This document shows positions 3,696-60,717 of a stretch of DNA of 64,000 bases, one piece after another. The translations under genes were made by a program, and so were the position numbers. Source of the stretch: Candidatus Electrothrix communis. Its GTDB lineage: Bacteria; Desulfobacterota; Desulfobulbia; Desulfobulbales; Desulfobulbaceae. Position 1 is the first letter of the stretch. Each line of letters starts with the position of its first letter. The stretch is from contig CP130629.1 of the NCBI GenBank assembly GCA_030644725.1, forward strand, positions 1,419,572-1,483,571, written 5' to 3'. The notes under the pieces were generated by a model, which saw nothing but the letters and a program-made list of their open reading frames with translations, had not been told where the DNA came from and did not search any database.

Positions 3696-6374
3696 ATGGC
3701 CAGTAAAAATTATTTCAGCGCTGTTACCACCCTCTGCTTCTGCCTAGCAATATGGGTAGGACATTTTTTTGGTTTTTTTAACCTGCCCGAGGGAATGATC
3801 TATGACTTCCTTGTTCAGGTTACGCCAGCGCAACAGCAGGCAACAGAAGACATCATTATCCTGGAGGTAGATGATGCGCCTCTCCGAGAAGGAGATGATC
3901 TTTGGCCGCACCTGCTCACCACCCTCAAGGCGATGCAGCCCCGTGCTATTGTTTTCCCCTTCCTCCCGCCCCACGGCTCTGAAAAATTTTATGCTGCTGC
4001 CGAAAAATCAGATACTATTTTTTTTGCCCGACAACTGACCCAGGAAGAGGGAGAAAACCAGCTGGAGCCCCTGCCTGCCCAGGCCCTTGACCGCAACCTA
4101 CGGATAGGTTTACTGGCCATGCCGCCGACCAGCTATGGCGTTCATCGCCAATATGAAATCGGGTATGCAACCGAGGAAGGTCCTCTGCCAAGTCTGGTCA
4201 GCATATTATCAGCACAGCTGGGTAATCGCCTACCGGATCCGAAAAGCACTGCCTCCTTTCTAATTAATTTTTTTCACTGCTCCCCCACCCTGCCCAGCCT
4301 TTCTTTTGTGCGGCTGCTGACCGGAGAAATCACCCCGGATCTCCTGCGTAATAAAATTATCCTGATCTCCCTTTCCTTCCCTCTCCACAGCCACGGTTTT
4401 CAGACCCCGATTAACCTCGGCGAGGAGAGTATGTCGCTGGTTGAATATACCGGCTATGCCCTGGAAACATTTCTTGAAGGCAAAGAACCCATCCCCACCG
4501 GGCCCTGGCTCACCCTGGCCCTGCTCTGCCTGACCGGCCTCTGCACCTTTTTCGCCTTCCAATACCTGCCGCCCTTGTATCACCTGCTGTATACCGCTGC
4601 CATACTGGCAGCTCTCCTGCTCTGCTCCTGGGCAACAGTGCGCTTTTTCCAGATCTGGCCGCCGGTGGCTGCCTTACTCCTGCTTCAAACAGCTCTCTTC
4701 CTTGTGGTTCCTCTTATCCGACTCAAAGAGCGGGAACAATTCACCCAAAACATCCTTCTGGAGCATTCCGCAGCCCTGCGAAAACACTTTTTCCCTGAGC
4801 GCCTCACAGGGACGGATGAGTACTGGTCCCATATTATTAATATGGTCAATCAGACCCTGCACCTTCATCGCTCCATCTTTCTGGAAACGGTTGAAGGGGA
4901 CCACCGGGTCCGGGAGGTCATTGCCTTACATTGCTCCATCAAGGACATTGCGGAACAGAGACGGGACTATCAGCGCACACCGTATCTCACCGCCCTGGCC
5001 GAAGGCGGTCCTGTCAGCGTATCCAGCTATCTGGCCACAGGCCCGGACGATGAGGAACAATTTCTTGTCCCTTTAAAAACAGCTAACCAAGTCCTGGGAT
5101 TTTGGGCCTTTGGGGTTTGTTCCCTTGACAAGACCGAGCGAAAAACCCTGCTGGAGACGGTACAGATGTTTGCCGGAAAAATCAGCATGGCCCTGCTGGA
5201 ACAGAAAGAATTCCTCCAGCTGGATCGAGTTCAGCATCGTGGAATGGGCAGATTCTTCAGTTCACAGGCCGTTGATGCGGTGAGCACCCAGCTGGATCAG
5301 ATGATCCTGCTCACCAAACGAAGAATGCAGGCTTTGGAGACCCTGATCAACGCTTTGAGCACGGCAACCGTGCTGTACGACTCCTTTGGCCGCTTAATCC
5401 AGATCAACACAAGAATGTCTGAACTGCTGCAGGATATGGAAGGCGTGAACGGCGGCAACTGCTCCTCCCTTGACCTGGGGGTGTGCCTGACCGGCAAGAG
5501 TATGGAGGAAACCCGTGGCTTGCTCAGTCGAGTGGTTATCGAGAAAAAAAATATCCGTCTGCCGGCAAAACTAGGCACAGATGACTGTGCTTTTGAACTG
5601 ATTATCCACCCGGTGACCCTGGAAACGGAATCTACAAAATCCAACACATCCCCTTTTCAAATACTCGGCATTCTCTTCGAGCTCCTTGACATTTCCAACC
5701 TTCAGCAAGCCTGGCATCTCCAAGAAGAACTTTTCGAGCAGACAAATTTCCATCTTCACCAGGATCTGGAGCAAATGCTGGCTGCTGAGGAATTACTCAA
5801 ACAGGACAACCTAGAGACGTCCCGCAAATCCGAAGCCCTGTCTCTGCTGCATAGAAGTCGTGAGGACATGCAAACCTTTGTCGAGGATATTGACAGCTTT
5901 GTTACCGACAACCTGCTGAGCGAGCATCCTGATATCTTTCCTGTTAATCCGGCAACCCTTCTTCGGGAAGCAGTGCGTACCCTGCAACAGGAGGCCGAAC
6001 AAGGCGGGATCACCTGTGCGATCAATGCGCAAGAGCACATCGAACTTGTTTATGCCGGTCCTGATATGCTCAAAGAACTGTTGGCCGCCTTGGTCAAGGT
6101 CTTGTTAGATGATGCCGCATCTGACACAACCCTATCAGCTGATTTCTCTCTTCGCGAGCATGCTGTACTATGTACCTTGAGCAATACAGGCTACGGCATT
6201 CCAGATGCGACTTTTCAACAATACCTGTTTGATCAGGAGGCTGCTCGTTCCGAGGCCTTTGCCAAAATTCACCGAATCCTGCCAGAACTCGAACGATGGG
6301 GAGCCTGTCTCTGCGGAACCAGCAGGATCGGACAGGGCATCCGTTTTGAGCTGATGCTGCGGAGATTTCATTGA
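3696..6374 (+). CDS. CHASE2-type membrane sensor with GAF/PAS-like and degenerate histidine-kinase ATPase regions
   Basis: This 892-residue protein starts at an ATG preceded by GGGAGG. An N-terminal membrane segment (about residues 8-28) is followed by a roughly 240-residue extracytoplasmic domain. Its opening (YDFLVQVTP...EDIIILEVDDAPL) is typical of CHASE2 domains. Three membrane helices follow (about 268-345), then a GAF-like domain (about 360-490), a PAS-like domain (about 545-665), a coiled coil and an HATPase-like end (about 740-890). The end keeps TGYGIPDATF and GQGIRFELML but lacks a clear H-box and a good N-box Asn, so phosphorylation activity is doubtful. It probably senses an envelope signal for the downstream polymer genes: its stop overlaps the start of the CapC-like gene (TTGA), which implies coupled translation. 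Confidence 0.75.
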   Translation: MASKNYFSAVTTLCFCLAIWVGHFFGFFNLPEGMIYDFLVQVTPAQQQATEDIIILEVDDAPLREGDDLWPHLLTTLKAMQPRAIVFPFLPPHGSEKFYAAAEKSDTIFFARQLTQEEGENQLEPLPAQALDRNLRIGLLAMPPTSYGVHRQYEIGYATEEGPLPSLVSILSAQLGNRLPDPKSTASFLINFFHCSPTLPSLSFVRLLTGEITPDLLRNKIILISLSFPLHSHGFQTPINLGEESMSLVEYTGYALETFLEGKEPIPTGPWLTLALLCLTGLCTFFAFQYLPPLYHLLYTAAILAALLLCSWATVRFFQIWPPVAALLLLQTALFLVVPLIRLKEREQFTQNILLEHSAALRKHFFPERLTGTDEYWSHIINMVNQTLHLHRSIFLETVEGDHRVREVIALHCSIKDIAEQRRDYQRTPYLTALAEGGPVSVSSYLATGPDDEEQFLVPLKTANQVLGFWAFGVCSLDKTERKTLLETVQMFAGKISMALLEQKEFLQLDRVQHRGMGRFFSSQAVDAVSTQLDQMILLTKRRMQALETLINALSTATVLYDSFGRLIQINTRMSELLQDMEGVNGGNCSSLDLGVCLTGKSMEETRGLLSRVVIEKKNIRLPAKLGTDDCAFELIIHPVTLETESTKSNTSPFQILGILFELLDISNLQQAWHLQEELFEQTNFHLHQDLEQMLAAEELLKQDNLETSRKSEALSLLHRSREDMQTFVEDIDSFVTDNLLSEHPDIFPVNPATLLREAVRTLQQEAEQGGITCAINAQEHIELVYAGPDMLKELLAALVKVLLDDAASDTTLSADFSLREHAVLCTLSNTGYGIPDATFQQYLFDQEAARSEAFAKIHRILPELERWGACLCGTSRIGQGIRFELMLRRFH

Positions 6375-9300
6375 CCGGTCCCTTTATCCTGAACATCTTT
6401 CCCCAAGGCAGTCTGGCCGGTTCGGTCATCACTCCTATATGGATAGGGGTCTGCATCGTGGCCTGGTTCAACCTGCGCCTGGGCTGGGTTCTGAGCGGTC
6501 TTGTGGTGCCGGGCTATCTGGTACCGCTCCTGCTCATAAAACCCTGGGCTGTCTGCGTCATCCTTATTGAGGCTGTCCTTACCTATCTGCTTGTCTGGTT
6601 CTTTTCAGAACGTTTATCCAAGGTTTTTGGTTTTACCAATTTATTTGGCCGCGACCGCTTCTTTGCCCTGCTCGCCGTCAGCGTGCTGGTCCGCCTAGGG
6701 GTGGACACCTTTCTTCTCCCCCTGCTGGGCGAATACCTCCGAACCGAATGGGGGATTCTTTTCGACTATCGCAATGACTTTCACAGCTTCGGCCTGATCA
6801 TCACCGCATTGATCGCCAACCAGCTCTGGAAACCCGGCCTGCGGACCGGAACCATGAATCTTGTTGTGACCGTGGGCCTGACCTGGCTGGTTGTCCGCTT
6901 CCTCCTGATGGAGTACACCAATTTCAGTGTGGGCAGCCTCGCCTATATGTACGAGAATCTGGCCGCCTCAATGGAGGCCGGGCCAAAAGCCTATATTATC
7001 CTCCTGACCACCGCCTATATCGCCTCATACTATAATCTGAAATACGGCTGGGAATATAACGGGATCGTCATCCCGGCCCTACTGGCCCTGGTCTGGTATC
7101 ATCCCGCCAAGATCCTTGTTTCCGTCCTGGAGACCTGCATCATCCTGGTGTTGGCCGCTGCAATCCTGCGCCTCCCTGTTTTTAAAAAAATCACTATGGA
7201 AGGGGCGAGAAAGATCCTGCTCTTTTTCAATATCTGCTTTATCTACAAACTGCTTCTCGGGCATCTCATTGTCCATTATTTCCCGGAACAACGGGTAACA
7301 GACCTCTACGGATTCGGCTATCTTCTTACCACTCTGATGGCTATCAAAATGTATGATAAGGGAACCTTTATCCGCACAACCCGAGTCACCCTCCAGGTAT
7401 CCTTTATCTCCCTTGCCCTAGCAAGCCTGATCGGTTTTTCCATGACCCTGATGCCCAATTTCTTTGTTACTCTCTCTGCACATAACGCCCCTGCTCTCCC
7501 TGGCCTTCCTGCTTTCCCCGCTCTCTTCTCTTCCTCGCAACAAAGAGCAAAATCCATCACAGAGGTCATCCGGACAGACCAGGTCAGCCTGTACAGAAAT
7601 CTGCACCGAGCAATCTCCCCCCTACCCGCAGAGATGGAGCAGTTCAGTGAGGCCCTGGCTGCATTAAAGACCTTCCGGCAGACAAAAGAATCAACTGCTC
7701 TGCAACAGGCCCGACAGCTGCTGGCTGGTCTGAACTACGGTTTGGAGCGGGTCGGAAAGCAGTATCTCTACCTCCGGGAACAGCCACCCGGCAGAGGATG
7801 GGGGATCTATGCCCTTCGTCTCGACCCAACACAGCCTTTATTGATCGAAGTCCCTGCGCCCTTGGATGAACCGGGAACCGCAGGGGCAGGTGCGGTCCTT
7901 TTTGAGAAATTTTCCGCCTCTGCTCTGGCTGTAGCCGGAACCCATAAAAACGCCAAGAACAACGATGTCCTGCACAGCCACCAAAGCATGCTCCACATCT
8001 TCCAGAAGACCTTTGGCAAGTCAGCTCTCCTTCAAGTCCGAGGAGCGTCTCAAGGGCAAACACAACAAACGCAGGAAAACCGCCTCTGGGTACGATCCAA
8101 AATTCCTGATGCATTAAATCTGACAACCCTGCGATCCCTGACAGGCCCCTTTAATCTACGCTGGGGAACACGAGCACAGGGTAACCTGCTCCGGGAGGAT
8201 ACAGAGGCCCGTTTTGCAGAACTGGTTCTCTCTGGGGGCGGCAAGCGGGCACTGCTGGCAGGATCGATATTTTCCGGGGAAGGGGTCATCAGTCGTGAAG
8301 GCGAGCTTGCTCTACGCGGCTATCTCCAGGAACAGTTGCGCAAAAGCAAACTGGAATCAGCAGCAAAAAAGACAAAGCCCTCCCCCAGACCTCTACTGGA
8401 AGAGCTGCTCTTTTTCGACCGAGAAGTCCTGACCCCGCTGGTCCGTCTCGTCCGCACCTGGCCGGAGAACGACGGGTTAGCCGAATCAACCGGATTAGCC
8501 ATGCATAAGGATGCACTGGACAATATTGCGGACGCTGCTGCGGTACCGGGCTATGAATTGGTCCACTACCGACATACGATCAGCGGCCAAGAATATTTCC
8601 TCCTCGCTGAAGCAACAGGGCAGAAGGAGCGGCATGTTGGAAGCGTTGGAAGCGTTGTTTTCCGGCTGGGGTCGGGTTCCGACCATATCATCCAGGTGCC
8701 GCGCCCCCTGTTCGAACTGCAAACCGCAGAATACGGGGCTGCCCTGTTCGACAAACTCGGTGCCTCAGCCCTGCTCCTCGGCGGAACCCAGGCAGGCATA
8801 AACACGGCAGCAGATCCGCTCCGCCCTGAAAATCGGCGAAACCTCTTCAACCTTATCAGCCAGGTACTGCTGCGGGAAAATAGCGACCGCCATCTGCTGA
8901 TCATCCAATGCCGGGCCGCCGGACGCAAGGATTTGGGCACAGATGCCCTGCTCTCCTGCAAGGACGGTCTTCGCCTGGACGACAGATCCTCAAGCCTGAA
9001 GGACACCTTGACGGAACAGCTGCAAGAGGACGGCCTGAGCTGGCGTCTCCTTACTGGCGAGCCTGCTGAAACCGGGTACAGGGCCGGAGGAATCCCCCAA
9101 TCCTTGTATCTCCGCCAGACCACGAATAAGGATTTCTGCGCCCTCTGGCTCAGTCCAAAAACCCGATTCCAGTACCGGCACCAGCTGGAAAATACAGTTC
9201 AGGCCCAGCAGTTCATTGTCTTAGGAATCAAAAGCGTTGTGGGAGACCTGTTCAGCCAACTGGCAAACTTACCTCCAGGAAAGAATCTTGCCCCGGATCA

Positions 9301-57378: not shown

Positions 57379-57493
57379 GCCCCAAAGGGGCTATATCTAG
57401 CCAGCCCAGGGTAACACCCTGGGTAAACGGAGCACGCCAAGCCCAGTACCCAGGGTGTTACCCTGGGCTCTTAAATATTGCCCCGTTGGGGCA
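57379..57493. repeat. CCCAGGG(TAACA/TGTTA)CCCTGGG palindromic repeat, copy 1
   Basis: Order: CCCCAAAGGGGCTATATCTA, CCCAGGGTAACACCCTGGG, a spacer, CCCAGGGTGTTACCCTGGGC, TCTTAAATATTGCCCCGTTGGGGC. The same 115-base arrangement precedes or follows both transposases and both FGE-fold genes. It ends 23 bases before the first transposase and contains the TTG that artificially extends that ORF. Confidence 0.85.
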
Positions 57494-57516
57494 TAAACAC
57501 CTCTGAAATTAGCACC

Positions 57517-57972
57517 ATGCCGCAATCCCTGGCCAAAATATTTCTCCACCTCATCTTTTCGACCAAGGACAGGATCCCCTTACTGGCTGACAAGAAAGTA
57601 CGTGAGGAAACCCATGCCTATCTTTTCGCGGCCTGCCGAGAACTCGGTGTCCCTCCGGTGATCGTCGGAGGTGTTGCGGATCATGTCCACCTTGCCTGCT
57701 CCATGTCCCGCACCCTGACCGTGGCTGATCTTGTCCGGGACATCAAACGCACTTCTTCAAGTTGGTTGAAACAACAGAGTGAAGGCACGGTTAATTTCCA
57801 TTGGCAGAGCGGATACGGCGTTTTTTCGGTGAGCCCATCCCATGTTGATGCATTGAAGGAATATATCCTTGGTCAGGAAGAACACCATCAACAGGTCTCT
57901 TTTAAAGATGAATTCCGGCAGATTGCCCAAAAATACGGTGTGGAGTACGATGAGCGTTATATGTGGGATTGA
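57517..57972 (+). CDS. IS200-like/RAYT single-strand transposase, copy 1
   Basis: ATG 57517 is used; the longer frame from TTG 57478 begins inside the palindromic repeat. The 151-residue product is a Y1 transposase: HLIFSTKDRIPLL, HUH motif in VADHVHLACSM, IKRTSSSWLKQQ, and FHWQSGYGVFSVS followed by HVDALKEYILGQEEHH, near the catalytic tyrosine. Length and motifs fit the IS200/IS605 and RAYT group. Flanking CCCAGGG...CCCTGGG palindromes on both sides (57379-57493 and 57974-58086) are likely substrates. A near-identical copy is at 59132. Confidence 0.9.
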   Translation: MPQSLAKIFLHLIFSTKDRIPLLADKKVREETHAYLFAACRELGVPPVIVGGVADHVHLACSMSRTLTVADLVRDIKRTSSSWLKQQSEGTVNFHWQSGYGVFSVSPSHVDALKEYILGQEEHHQQVSFKDEFRQIAQKYGVEYDERYMWD

Positions 57973-57973
57973 T

Positions 57974-58086
57974 GCCCTGAAGGGGCTATATTTAGCCAGC
58001 TTGGGGTAACACCCCAAGAAAGAGATACACCAACCCCGGTGCCCAGGGTGTTACCCTGGGCTCTTAAATATTGCCCCGTTGGGGCA
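57974..58086. repeat. Palindromic repeat, copy 2
   Basis: GCCCTGAAGGGGCTATATTT, TTGGGGTAACACCCCAA, GCCCAGGGTGTTACCCTGGG and ATTGCCCCGTTGGGGCA, in the same order as copy 1. The central palindrome has compensated changes (TTGGGG/CCCCAA for CCCAGGG/CCCTGGG), which indicates that the stem, not the sequence, is kept. Confidence 0.85.
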
Positions 58087-58130
58087 TGGAGATTCCGCCA
58101 AATTTTCCTTTTGTAAAAAATAGATAGCCT

Positions 58131-58865
58131 ATGCCAAAAGAAAACCTCACCATCCAGCTCCCCGATGGCCCAACCATCGAACTTATCTACGTCCAAGGCG
58201 GCACCTTTACGATGGGCAGCGATGATTCGGAAGCCCTTGACCGGGAAAAACCAGCCCATCAAGTAAAACTGTCTGATTTTTACATCGCCAAATATCCTGT
58301 GACACAGGAGCAATGGCAGGCAGTTACAGGAGAAAACCCTTCTGGATTCCAGGGAGAACAACAACCGGTAGAAAAGGTCTCCTGGCATGATACACAAGAG
58401 TTCCTCGAAAAGCTGAATCAAATTACCGGAAAAGGGTTTCGCCTACCCACAGAGGCAGAGTGGGAATTCGCAGCCCGTGGTGGCATCTACAGCCAAGGGT
58501 ACAAGTATGCAGGCAGTGATCGGCTGAAGCAGGTGGGTTGGTATGACGACAATAGCGACGATCAAACCCATGAGGTTGGGCTGCTGCTGGCTAATGAACT
58601 GGGCCTGCATGATATGAGCGGCAACGTCTGGGAATGGTGCCGAGATTGGTTTTCTGATAAATACTACGAAGAATGCCACAAACGTGGTGTTATGGAAAAC
58701 CCGCAAGGGCCTGATAAGGGTACGGACCGTGTTCTCCGTGGCGGCAGCTGGATCTTCCATCCGGTGGTCTGCCGCTCTGTCGATCGGTATCGCACCGGTC
58801 CCGAGATTCGCCGCGGCTTTGTCGGGTTTCGCTTGGTTCTTCCCTTCCAGGCAGTTGGAAGCTAA
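58131..58865 (+). CDS. FGE-sulfatase/C-type-lectin-fold protein with hypervariable C-terminal block (putative DGR target), copy 1
   Basis: The 244-residue protein has the formylglycine-generating-enzyme (SUMF1) fold. Motifs are VQGGTFTMGSDD, KPAHQVKLSDFYIAKYPVTQ, PVEKVSWHDTQEFLEKLN, GFRLPTEAEWEFAARGG, LHDMSGNVWEWCRDWF, VLRGGSW and VGFRLVLP. No signal peptide is seen. The first of the two catalytic cysteines of true FGE is absent (Trp in RGGSW), so it is probably a binding protein, not an enzyme. The 3' half is almost identical in DNA to the gene at 59780, except for the 75-base block 58749-58823. This fold with a variable block just before GFRLV is the classical target of diversity-generating retroelements. 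No ribosome site is obvious. It follows a transposase and repeat, and a terminator-like hairpin follows it. Confidence 0.85.
   Translation: MPKENLTIQLPDGPTIELIYVQGGTFTMGSDDSEALDREKPAHQVKLSDFYIAKYPVTQEQWQAVTGENPSGFQGEQQPVEKVSWHDTQEFLEKLNQITGKGFRLPTEAEWEFAARGGIYSQGYKYAGSDRLKQVGWYDDNSDDQTHEVGLLLANELGLHDMSGNVWEWCRDWFSDKYYEECHKRGVMENPQGPDKGTDRVLRGGSWIFHPVVCRSVDRYRTGPEIRRGFVGFRLVLPFQAVGS
58749..58823 (+). other. Hypervariable block (putative DGR variable region), gene copy 1
   Basis: These 25 codons lie between RGGS and GFRLV. Compared with 60428-60502, 13 residues differ, while the flanks are nearly identical. Varied codons here include ATC, CAT, GTC, GAT, TAT, CGC, ACC, GGT, CGC, GGC, TTT and GTC, all ending in C or T. 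Bases differ mostly at codon positions 1 and 2. Constant anchors are P-V, C-R-S-V, R and P-E-I-R. This is what adenine mutagenesis of AAY codons in a template repeat would produce. Confidence 0.65.
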
Positions 58866-58963
58866 TCCTGCTTTTCCCGTGAGCAAAAAAAAGAAAAAAG
58901 CGGAGCAGCCAGCTGCAAGGGAGTGAGGGACGAACGGACGGCTGCGGCTGTGCAGTTAAGGAG

Positions 58964-58990
58964 TTCGGGGCGTAGCCCCGGCGATTTTTT
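58964..58990 (+). terminator. Rho-independent-type terminator after FGE-fold gene 1
   Basis: CGGGGC-GTA-GCCCCG followed by GCGA and TTTTTT, about 100 bases after the stop codon. An equivalent with a GAA loop follows gene copy 2. In DGR targets a hairpin downstream of the variable region often assists retrohoming, so a double role is possible. Confidence 0.6.
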
Positions 58991-58993
58991 CAT

Positions 58994-59108
58994 GCCCCAA
59001 GGGGGCTATATCTAACCAGCTCAGGGTAACACCCTGAGTGAAAGGAATACACCACCTCCGGTGCCTAGGGTGTTACCCCAGGCTCTTAAATATTGCCCCG
59101 TTGGGGCA
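58994..59108. repeat. Palindromic repeat, copy 3
   Basis: GCCCCAAGGGGGCTATATCT, CTCAGGGTAACACCCTGAG, CCTAGGGTGTTACCCCAGGC and ATTGCCCCGTTGGGGCA. It has the same layout as copies 1, 2 and 4 and stands directly before the second transposase. Confidence 0.85.
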
Positions 59109-59131
59109 TAAACACCTCGGAGACTATCATC

Positions 59132-59587
59132 ATGCCGCAATCCCTGGCCAAAATATTTCTCCACCTCATCTTTTCGACCAAAGACAGGATCCCCTTGCTG
59201 GCTAACAAGAAGGTGCGCGAGGAAACCCATGCCTATCTTTTCGCGGCCTGCCGAGAACTCGGTGTCTCTCCGGTGATGGTCGGAGGTGTTGCGGATCATG
59301 TCCACCTTGCCTGCTCCATGTCCCGCACCCTGACCGTGGCTGATCTTGTCCGGGATATCAAACGTACTTCTTCAAGTTGGCTGAAACAACAGAGTGAAGG
59401 CACGGTTAATTTCCATTGGCAGAGCGGATACGGCGTTTTTTCGGTGAGCCCATCCCATGTTGATGCATTGAAGGAATATATCCTTGGTCAGGAAGAACAC
59501 CATCAACAGGTCTCTTTTAAAGATGAATTCCGGCAGATTGCCCAAAAATACGGTATAGAGTACGATGAACGGTATGTTTGGGATTGA
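59132..59587 (+). CDS. IS200-like/RAYT single-strand transposase, copy 2
   Basis: This 151-residue protein differs from the 57517 product at only a handful of positions (for example LANKK for LADKK, SPVMVGG for PPVIVGG, ERYVWD for ERYMWD). All catalytic motifs are kept (DHVHLACSM; GYGVFSVS...YILGQEEHH). The ORF could be extended to TTG 59093 inside the repeat, but ATG 59132 is the natural start. Near-identity shows recent duplication of the whole repeat-transposase-FGE module. Confidence 0.9.
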   Translation: MPQSLAKIFLHLIFSTKDRIPLLANKKVREETHAYLFAACRELGVSPVMVGGVADHVHLACSMSRTLTVADLVRDIKRTSSSWLKQQSEGTVNFHWQSGYGVFSVSPSHVDALKEYILGQEEHHQQVSFKDEFRQIAQKYGIEYDERYVWD

Positions 59588-59621
59588 TGCGCTTGCTCGG
59601 AGAAACCCTTCCAGGGTTTAT

Positions 59622-59737
59622 GCCCCAAAGGGGCTATATATAGTCAGCTCAGGGTAACACCGTGAGTATAGAAGCACACCAACCCCGGTGCCCAGGGTGT
59701 TACCCTGGGCTCTTAAAATATTGCCCCGTTGGGGCAT
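59622..59737. repeat. Palindromic repeat, copy 4
   Basis: GCCCCAAAGGGGCTATATAT, CTCAGGGTAACACCGTGAG, GCCCAGGGTGTTACCCTGGG and ATTGCCCCGTTGGGGCA, between the second transposase and the second FGE-fold gene. A small CCCTTCCAGGG hairpin precedes it. Confidence 0.85.
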
Positions 59738-59779
59738 GGAGATGCCGCCAAATTTTCCATTTGACTGAAATCGCAAACA

Positions 59780-60544
59780 ATGCAGAAAAACAACGAGACA
59801 ATTACCCCGCCCCTGCCTGATCTTGATCTCTGTCCGGTGAAAGGCGGAGAGTTTATCATGGGTGATGATAACAGTGAATATGATGACGAGAAGCCCGCTC
59901 ATTCTGTCCATGTTGCCGGTTTTTATATGGGTAAATTTCAGGTCACCCAACGATTATGGGAGAGCGTGACCGGGGATAACCCATCGGACTTCAAAGGCGA
60001 ACGCCGTCCGGTGGAAACAGTTTCCTGGGAAGACGCACAGACCTTTCTCGACAAACTGAACGCCCGTGCAGAGGTACAGGATTTCATCCGTCAGCTTGAT
60101 CCGCCCGGCACAAAATTCCGGCTGCCCACGGAAGCGGAATGGGAATTCGCAGCCCGTGGTGGCATCTACAGCCAAGGCTATACATACGCGGGCAGCGACC
60201 GGCTGAAGCAGGTGGGTTGGCATGACAAAAATAGCGACGATCAAACCCATGAGGTTGGGCTGCTGCTGGCTAATGAACTGGGCCTGCATGATATGAGCGG
60301 CAATGTCTGGGAATGGTGCCAAGATTGGTTTTCTGATAAATACTACGAAGAATGCCACAAACGCGGCACCGTGGAAAATCCACAAGGCCCTGATAAGGGT
60401 GCGCTCCGTGTTCTCCGTGGCGGCAGCTCTTTCTTTAGCCCGGTGAGCTGCCGCTCTGTCCGTCGGGCTAACCTCGAGCCAGAGATCCGTTCCCGTGGTC
60501 TCGGGTTTCGCTTGGTTCTTCCCTTCCAGGCAGCTGGAAGCTGA
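59780..60544 (+). CDS. FGE-sulfatase/C-type-lectin-fold protein with hypervariable C-terminal block (putative DGR target), copy 2
   Basis: The 254-residue protein is homologous to the 58131 product. Its N-terminal half is diverged and slightly longer (CPVKGGEFIMGDDNSEYDDE, FYMGKFQVTQRLWESVTG, then an insert VQDFIRQLDPPGTK). From FRLPTEAEWEFAARGG to the stop the two genes are nearly identical, apart from the block 60428-60502. The FGE catalytic Cys pair is incomplete (RGGSS; one Cys in SCRSV), so a binding role is likely. There is no signal peptide and no strong ribosome site. The contrast of an old, diverged N-terminal half, a homogenised 3' half and a scrambled 75-base block is best explained by gene conversion plus targeted diversification. 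Confidence 0.85.
   Translation: MQKNNETITPPLPDLDLCPVKGGEFIMGDDNSEYDDEKPAHSVHVAGFYMGKFQVTQRLWESVTGDNPSDFKGERRPVETVSWEDAQTFLDKLNARAEVQDFIRQLDPPGTKFRLPTEAEWEFAARGGIYSQGYTYAGSDRLKQVGWHDKNSDDQTHEVGLLLANELGLHDMSGNVWEWCQDWFSDKYYEECHKRGTVENPQGPDKGALRVLRGGSSFFSPVSCRSVRRANLEPEIRSRGLGFRLVLPFQAAGS
60428..60502 (+). other. Hypervariable block (putative DGR variable region), gene copy 2
   Basis: These 25 codons correspond to 58749-58823. Codons here include TCT, TTC, AGC, AGC, CGT, GCT, AAC, CTC, GAG, TCC, CGT, GGT and CTC at the positions that differ. An unmutated AAC is present at the position where copy 1 has CGC. All but GAG end in C or T. The constant anchors (PV, CRSV, R, PEIR, GFRLV) are shared with copy 1. 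Confidence 0.65.
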
Positions 60545-60640
60545 TCCAGCTTTTCCCGTGAGCAAAAAGAGAAAAAACGGAGCAGCCAGCTGCAAGGTAG
60601 TGAGGGACGAACGGACGGCTGCGGCTGTGCAGTTAAGGTG

Positions 60641-60667
60641 TTCGGGGCGAAGCCCCGGCGATTTTTT
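60641..60667 (+). terminator. Rho-independent-type terminator after FGE-fold gene 2
   Basis: CGGGGC-GAA-GCCCCG, then GCGATTTTTT, at the same distance after the stop as in copy 1. The loop differs by one base from copy 1. Confidence 0.6.
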
Positions 60668-60670
60668 CAT

Positions 60671-60717
60671 GCCCCAACGGGGCTATACTTCGTCAGCTCA
60701 GGGTAACACCCTGAGTA
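60671..60717. repeat. Palindromic repeat, copy 5 (partial)
   Basis: GCCCCAACGGGGCTATACTT and CTCAGGGTAACACCCTGAG are present; the second half of the arrangement (TGTTACCC plus ATTGCCCC) is missing. It marks the right end of the duplicated region. Confidence 0.75.

Follow-up and report, generated by a model that had tools for sequence, protein, structure and literature searches.

Orphaned variable blocks in two FGE-fold genes of Candidatus Electrothrix communis, probable products of retrohoming from templates now missing

The stretch considered here (the window) comprises 64,000 nucleotides of the chromosome of the cable bacterium Candidatus Electrothrix communis, positions 1419572-1483571 of a single contig of 4,845,585 bp (CP130629.1). 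Towards its end stand two genes in tandem, each preceded by a gene for an IS200-like transposase, that encode proteins of the FGE/C-type-lectin fold (target genes 1 and 2; Table 1). The Pfam scan of target gene 1 gives an FGE domain only. The protein of target gene 2 is similar in length (its domain scan used NCBIfam only), and its best solved relative is variable protein 1 of Treponema denticola (2y3c, E=4.6e-36), a variable protein of a diversity-generating retroelement (DGR). The name FGE reflects matches at the level of family and fold only. Each gene carries a block of 75 bp, VR1 (codons 207-231 of target gene 1) or VR2 (codons 217-241 of target gene 2), that forms the C-terminal end of the fold, as judged by PF03781 and the match to 2y3c. 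A preliminary description of this DNA placed genes and blocks exactly where they are found here, and supposed that the blocks had been written by a DGR acting in trans, there being no reverse transcriptase (RT) in the window. Indeed, none of the genome's seven matches to RVT_1 falls within it. I argue that VR1 and VR2 are very probably variable repeats of a DGR, written by retrohoming, and that the templates from which they were copied are now missing.

The two genes are clearly alike in their 3' halves, though to call these nearly identical, as had been done, is too strong: identity is 87.5% over 606 bp, block included, and 89% over the 97 codons compared 5' of the block. Within the block, 29 of 75 bases differ, whereas the 7 codons that precede it are the same in both genes and the 13 that follow contain a single base difference. 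This confinement is not chance. A recount gives the same 13 differing residues out of 25 as before, and the codons at which residues change do end in C or T, except for TGG and GAG. The further claim, that changes gather in the first two bases of codons, has little force when this pair is taken by itself, its differences numbering 11, 10, and 8 at first, second, and third bases; what stands is that the block differs in this respect from the sequence upstream of it in the same genes (6, 4, and 22; Fisher p = 0.002). The pair shows the signature weakly because it mixes two template lineages.

The lineages become visible through two other genes that share with the window genes a cassette of about 161 bp, spanning the block and extending beyond the stop codon. 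One encodes a caspase-FGE protein of 592 amino acids at 670.7-672.5 kb of the same chromosome (locus L034, 4706-6484), found by blastn of the genome; its block is VR3. The other, with block VR4, belongs to Ca. Electrothrix aarhusensis (genome G004, contig MTKO01000138.1). The limits of the cassette were set by eye, as the start and end of identity between otherwise diverged genes in the alignment of all four. Third bases split the four blocks into lineage alpha (VR1 and VR4) and lineage beta (VR2 and VR3). Within a lineage, differences all but avoid the third base: VR2 and VR3 differ by 21 bases (8, 12, and 1 at the three codon positions), VR1 and VR4 by 15 (3, 11, and 1), while blocks of different lineages differ by 10-12, 8-12, and 7-8. 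When these counts are set against those from the codons upstream in each gene pair, Fisher tests give p = 1.4e-4 for VR2/VR3 and 4.5e-3 for VR1/VR4, values that are descriptive rather than proof, since the lineages were set, after inspection, from the same third bases that were later counted. Seven codons of the VR2/VR3 pair are altered at first and second base alike. Within each lineage a single third base differs, that of codon 18; this proline codon reads CCC, CCA, CCG, and CCG in VR1, VR2, VR3, and VR4.

Over the 90 upstream codons compared, the genes of VR2 and VR3 share 62% identity, with 24, 28, and 50 differences at the three codon positions; the stretches that flank the block directly, 7 codons on its 5' side and 13 on its 3' side, are identical. 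For VR1 and VR4 the upstream identity is 59%, the 7 flanking codons on the 5' side are again identical, and 5 bases differ in the 13 on the 3' side. The window genes, with flanks alike and blocks of different lineages, fit an event in which only the block was replaced. A single template for both blocks, as the preliminary description had it, is ruled out by the 8 third-base differences between VR1 and VR2, which point to two templates. The main pair tests do not include two more blocks. VR5 (genome G007), compared over 33 codons, differs from each of VR1-VR4 at 11-12 third bases and fits neither lineage. VR6 comes from the same genome as VR4 (C52, locus L050, about 1511-1700) and is an alpha-like, apparently frameshifted remnant of the cassette, with 10 and 11 third-base differences to VR2 and VR3. 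Two further loci (L047 and L048) were read, outside the codon-by-codon alignment.

Downstream of each window gene a hairpin had been noted, and in fact there are two: a terminator-like stem with a T-run and, closer in, a hairpin directly 3' of the block. The closer hairpin of VR2, with its 7-bp stem and loop of 4 nucleotides, recurs 3' of VR3 and VR4. Conserved homology on the 3' side and an inverted repeat downstream of the block are present in all four genes.

The genome possesses the machinery that could produce such blocks. A complete DGR lies at about 2.056-2.064 Mb (locus L032, 4389-12062), consisting of an RT, bAvd (PF22296, E=4.3e-21), a template repeat (TR1), and two FGE targets. The RT (RT1, 365 amino acids) bears the motifs IGNLTSQ and YVDD, and it is the one RVT_1 match in the genome with an SQ motif, a short below-cut-off match (L006) being of a type that is not readable. 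One local target is a KAP-NTPase-FGE gene (4389-7202 of locus L032), the other an FGE gene with a weak, below-cut-off match to NACHT. A third target of TR1 is found at about 4.003 Mb (block at 4936-5034 of locus L036), 1.94 Mb away. The three targets differ from TR1 at 10, 21, and 21 of its 34 A sites and in each case at 0 of 65 other sites, so the third is a true remote target, and action over a distance does occur.

A second template-like repeat, TR2, is at 187876 (locus L033, 4877-4975) and is followed, after about 230 bp, by its own FGE gene (locus L033, 5205-6044), the two together occupying 187.9-189.0 kb. They differ at 16 of 23 A sites and at 4 of 76 others. There is no RVT_1 match within the 10 kb taken around TR2; an RT located farther off may serve it. 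A TR2-like arrangement, with a template alike in 95 of 99 bases, exists in a second genome of the genus. In the genus as a whole, 6 of 8 genomes contain 13 RT matches, of which 12 have a readable motif and 3, in two genomes (G000 and G001), are of the SQ type characteristic of DGRs. Template/target pairs are found also in two related genera, differing at 12 of 24 A sites and 0 of 75 others in one (G010) and at 9 of 23 and 0 of 76 in the other (G020). Elsewhere in the family, genome G012 matches the RT query 47 times, with equal scores for many of the matches, which reads as a burst of copies of an RT-bearing element.

These templates offer a measure of which codons ought to vary. The codons that vary amongst VR1-VR4 include 12 of the 13 AAY codons of TR1 (p = 0.0033), 8 of 8 of TR2 (p = 0.012), and 11 of 11 and 10 of 10 of the template-like repeats of G001 and G010 (p = 0.00098 and 0.0025). 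Codon 18, the exception amongst third bases, is CCA in both TR1 and TR2.

I propose the following history. An RT of the DGR type would copy an A-rich template, placing random bases opposite adenines, and the resulting cDNA would replace the 75-bp block, leaving the flanks unchanged. Two sister templates, alpha and beta, with distinct third bases, would have written VR1 and VR2 separately, after or during the levelling of the 3' halves by duplication or gene conversion. Afterwards the templates would have been lost, or they lie outside the assembly. The core of the alpha or beta template to be sought would read CCGGTG-AAY-TGCCGCTCTGTC-AAY-CGG. The proteins would bind variable ligands. The pattern of differences, the common cassette, the resident DGR with its remote target, and the mismatch of its templates are observed; retrohoming as the writer, the loss of the templates, and a role of the proteins in conflict systems, as binding or sensor modules, I infer. 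An adenine-templated origin by retrohoming is nonetheless very probable, and the case for it is stronger than the preliminary description could make it: two same-lineage pairs avoid third bases, a cassette is common to genes only about 60% identical outside of it, the genome harbors a DGR with FGE-fold targets, one of them remote, and the best solved match is a DGR variable protein.

The observations that weigh against the proposal may be brought together here. In the genome itself, a search by blastn with block and flank (E<=1) yields no template: the seven matches are VR1-VR3 and four short ones of 17-27 bases (E 0.38-0.70). A pattern search allowing up to 3 mismatches gives VR1-VR3 only, with 0 matches in the control. 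By blastn, 5 of 145 relatives (own genome included) have a match, at 8 places; 3 are the genome's own blocks, and 5 look like FGE targets or what remains of them. The pattern finds no template in 257 genomes of the order, where 9 have matches: two are VR4 and VR5, and in the single frame that was read the other seven show no surrounding RGGS...GFR. It has 0 matches amongst 395 genomes of the phylum. Two patterns and one protein scan reveal no relative in viral contigs, nor was one found in phages, and amongst plasmids there are two distant FGE-type proteins, 36-44% identical. An exact-match scan of public genome contigs returns the aarhusensis block and one chance match in Phycisphaerales, with no FGE context in three frames. 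The absence of a template rests on patterns of bounded sensitivity and on an assembly of 95.69% completeness, and, no template having been found, specificity for adenine is deduced from pairs of products rather than seen against a template. Other points lie on the same side. The VR1/VR2 pair by itself overlaps only weakly with the AAY codons of the TR1, TR2, G001, and G010 repeats (p = 0.08, 0.125, 0.011, and 0.029). Codon 18 is CCA in the resident templates only; it is CCG, CCG, and CCC in the repeats of G001, G010, and G020. VR6, which departs from VR1 and from VR4 at 4 third bases each, is a poorer fit to alpha. Finally, two of the three targets of the resident DGR have a different hairpin, of 6 bp, about 70 bases downstream, and none was found in the third.

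Could the resident DGR, as the preliminary description would have it, be diversifying the window genes in trans now, by RT1 with TR1 from 2.06 Mb or with TR2, which at 188 kb has no adjoining RT? Distance is no bar, given the remote target of TR1, but the sites that should not change are fatal to the idea. A target should equal its template at all sites other than A, and VR1-VR4 do not: VR1 and VR2 mismatch TR1 at 21 and 29 of 65 such sites (21-29 over the four blocks) and TR2 at 28 and 27 of 76 (25-30 over the four). TR1 and TR2 are hence ruled out as writers of the window blocks, present action by either is very improbable indeed, and the simplest form of the earlier idea is removed. Of the two absences that it named as grounds for refutation, one is observed: a DGR RT is there, at 2.06 Mb, but a matching template is not found in the one-contig genome. 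Because the resident templates mismatch and the searches made found no other, the blocks most likely stem from missing templates. RT1 may still act on an unseen alpha or beta template.

One may also imagine a history with no retroelement at all, in which the cassette spread by gene conversion and selection on ordinary mutations then drove binding residues apart. The cassette does sit in duplicated genes, and the changed residues lie in the part of the fold with which FGE-type DGR proteins bind their ligands. Against it, VR2 and VR3 differ by 20 changes in first and second bases and 1 in third bases, with 7 codons altered twice and not a single change in 20 flanking codons, and the lone exception falls on a base that is adenine in both resident templates. 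I consider this history very improbable. There is also a variant of the proposed retrohoming in which the templates persist outside the assembly, be it in cells of the population with an intact cassette, in a phage, or in a replicon that was not assembled, and writing of the targets goes on. The incompleteness of the assembly speaks for it; the single contig of 4.85 Mb, the lack of any relative in viral contigs and phages, and plasmid matches so distant speak against it, and I think it rather unlikely. With neither template found in the assembled genome, VR1 and VR2 would be orphaned or "frozen" targets, unless the templates are on unassembled DNA or in other cells.

As for the surroundings (Table 1), the two transposase units share 88.5% identity along 771 bp, and the first transposase gene is part of a tandem duplication. 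A gene for a Roc-COR GTPase lies upstream of the FGE pair. Palindromic repeats, recognized by eye, with TGCCCCAACGGGGC-type stems and GGTGTTACCCTG arms, are found near the IS200-like genes and after the targets (window positions 57974-58087, 58993-59109, 59620-59737, and 60670-60715), as well as in locus L034 past 6615.

Table 1. Features of the two FGE-fold genes and their variable blocks (window positions)
Feature	Position	Strand	Basis
IS200-like (Y1) transposase gene upstream of target gene 1	57478..57972	+	PF01797 E=4.2e-20; NF033573
Target gene 1, 244-amino-acid FGE/C-type-lectin-fold protein	58131..58865	+	open reading frame; PF03781 E=1.8e-54
Shared cassette, ~161 bp, target gene 1	58727..58887	+	four-gene alignment
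Variable block VR1, lineage alpha	58749..58823	+	third bases as in VR4 (Ca. Electrothrix aarhusensis) except codon 18
Hairpin directly 3' of VR1, 6-bp stem CTTCCA/TGGAAG, 6-nucleotide loop	58844..58861	+	inverted-repeat scan
Terminator-like hairpin with T-run, after target gene 1	58965..58981	+	
IS200-like (Y1) transposase gene upstream of target gene 2	59093..59587	+	NF033573
Target gene 2, 254-amino-acid FGE/C-type-lectin-fold protein	59780..60544	+	open reading frame; PF03781 match, genome search
Shared cassette, ~161 bp, target gene 2	60406..60566	+	four-gene alignment
Variable block VR2, lineage beta	60428..60502	+	third bases as in VR3 (672 kb) except codon 18
Hairpin directly 3' of VR2, 7-bp stem CTTCCAG/CTGGAAG, loop GCAG	60523..60540	+	inverted-repeat scan
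Terminator-like hairpin with T-run, after target gene 2	60642..60658	+	

The inventory of this genome now comprises a DGR whose local FGE targets are a KAP-NTPase fusion and a weakly NACHT-like gene, a further target far away, an orphan cassette in a caspase-FGE gene, and the two window genes. In the openly licensed literature, no paper was found that joins cable bacteria, Electrothrix, or Desulfobulbaceae with DGRs. Comparison of third bases recognizes targets whose template is gone, which searches that start from the template would miss. One may go further and imagine a pool of cable-bacterium sensor genes whose cassettes are rewritten by templates that come and go, from other cells or mobile DNA, with one RT or visiting RTs serving several lineages. 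This is speculation to which I give no great chance. If it is true, third-base fingerprints of "ghost" templates record past events of diversification.

How does all this compare with what is known? The T. denticola protein, TvpA (2y3c), has the same fold by sequence, and the match takes in the RGGS...GFRL segment that holds the block; it differs in that the match to the window protein falls in two stretches. Guo et al. (2011, PMC3240598) report that homing in the Bordetella phage BPP-1 requires a hairpin downstream of the variable repeat, and that such hairpins of phage DGRs carry GRNA loops on stems of 7-10 bp. The blocks considered here similarly have a short inverted repeat just 3' of them, with a 7-bp stem and a 4-nucleotide loop in the case of VR2, VR3, and VR4; unlike those of phages, the loop is GCAG, and VR1 has a stem of 6 bp and a loop of 6 nucleotides. 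With that loop, and with a different hairpin in the resident targets, the likeness to BPP-1 is partial.

A close parallel is with the multi-target DGRs of multicellular bacteria, as described for Thiohalocapsa PB-PSB1 by Dore et al. (2024, PMC10907252). The present case differs from theirs in that orphan blocks of two template lineages stand on similar flanks, and in the host, a cable bacterium; the words "Electrothrix", "Desulfo", and "cable" are missing from the main text of that paper. The likenesses are several. There too, FGE/C-type-lectin targets are joined to STAND/NACHT, KAP NTPase, or peptidase-type domains. Targets that lie far from their template agree with it at every non-A site, some targets have no template match in the reference genome, and duplication is linked to mobile elements. 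Within one RT clade, a short, lectin-only target stands beside a long one. Other FGE genes of the Electrothrix genome are fused to a KAP NTPase, to a caspase, or to a domain weakly like NACHT/STAND, and these architectures, together with the Roc-COR GTPase gene upstream of the window pair, resemble the conflict-system sensors described by Dore et al. Those authors propose that such targets sense antigens, which by their own account is still to be tested, and that targeted hypermutation of immune-type sensors matters in multicellular bacteria. Cable bacteria, being multicellular filaments, present just that setting.

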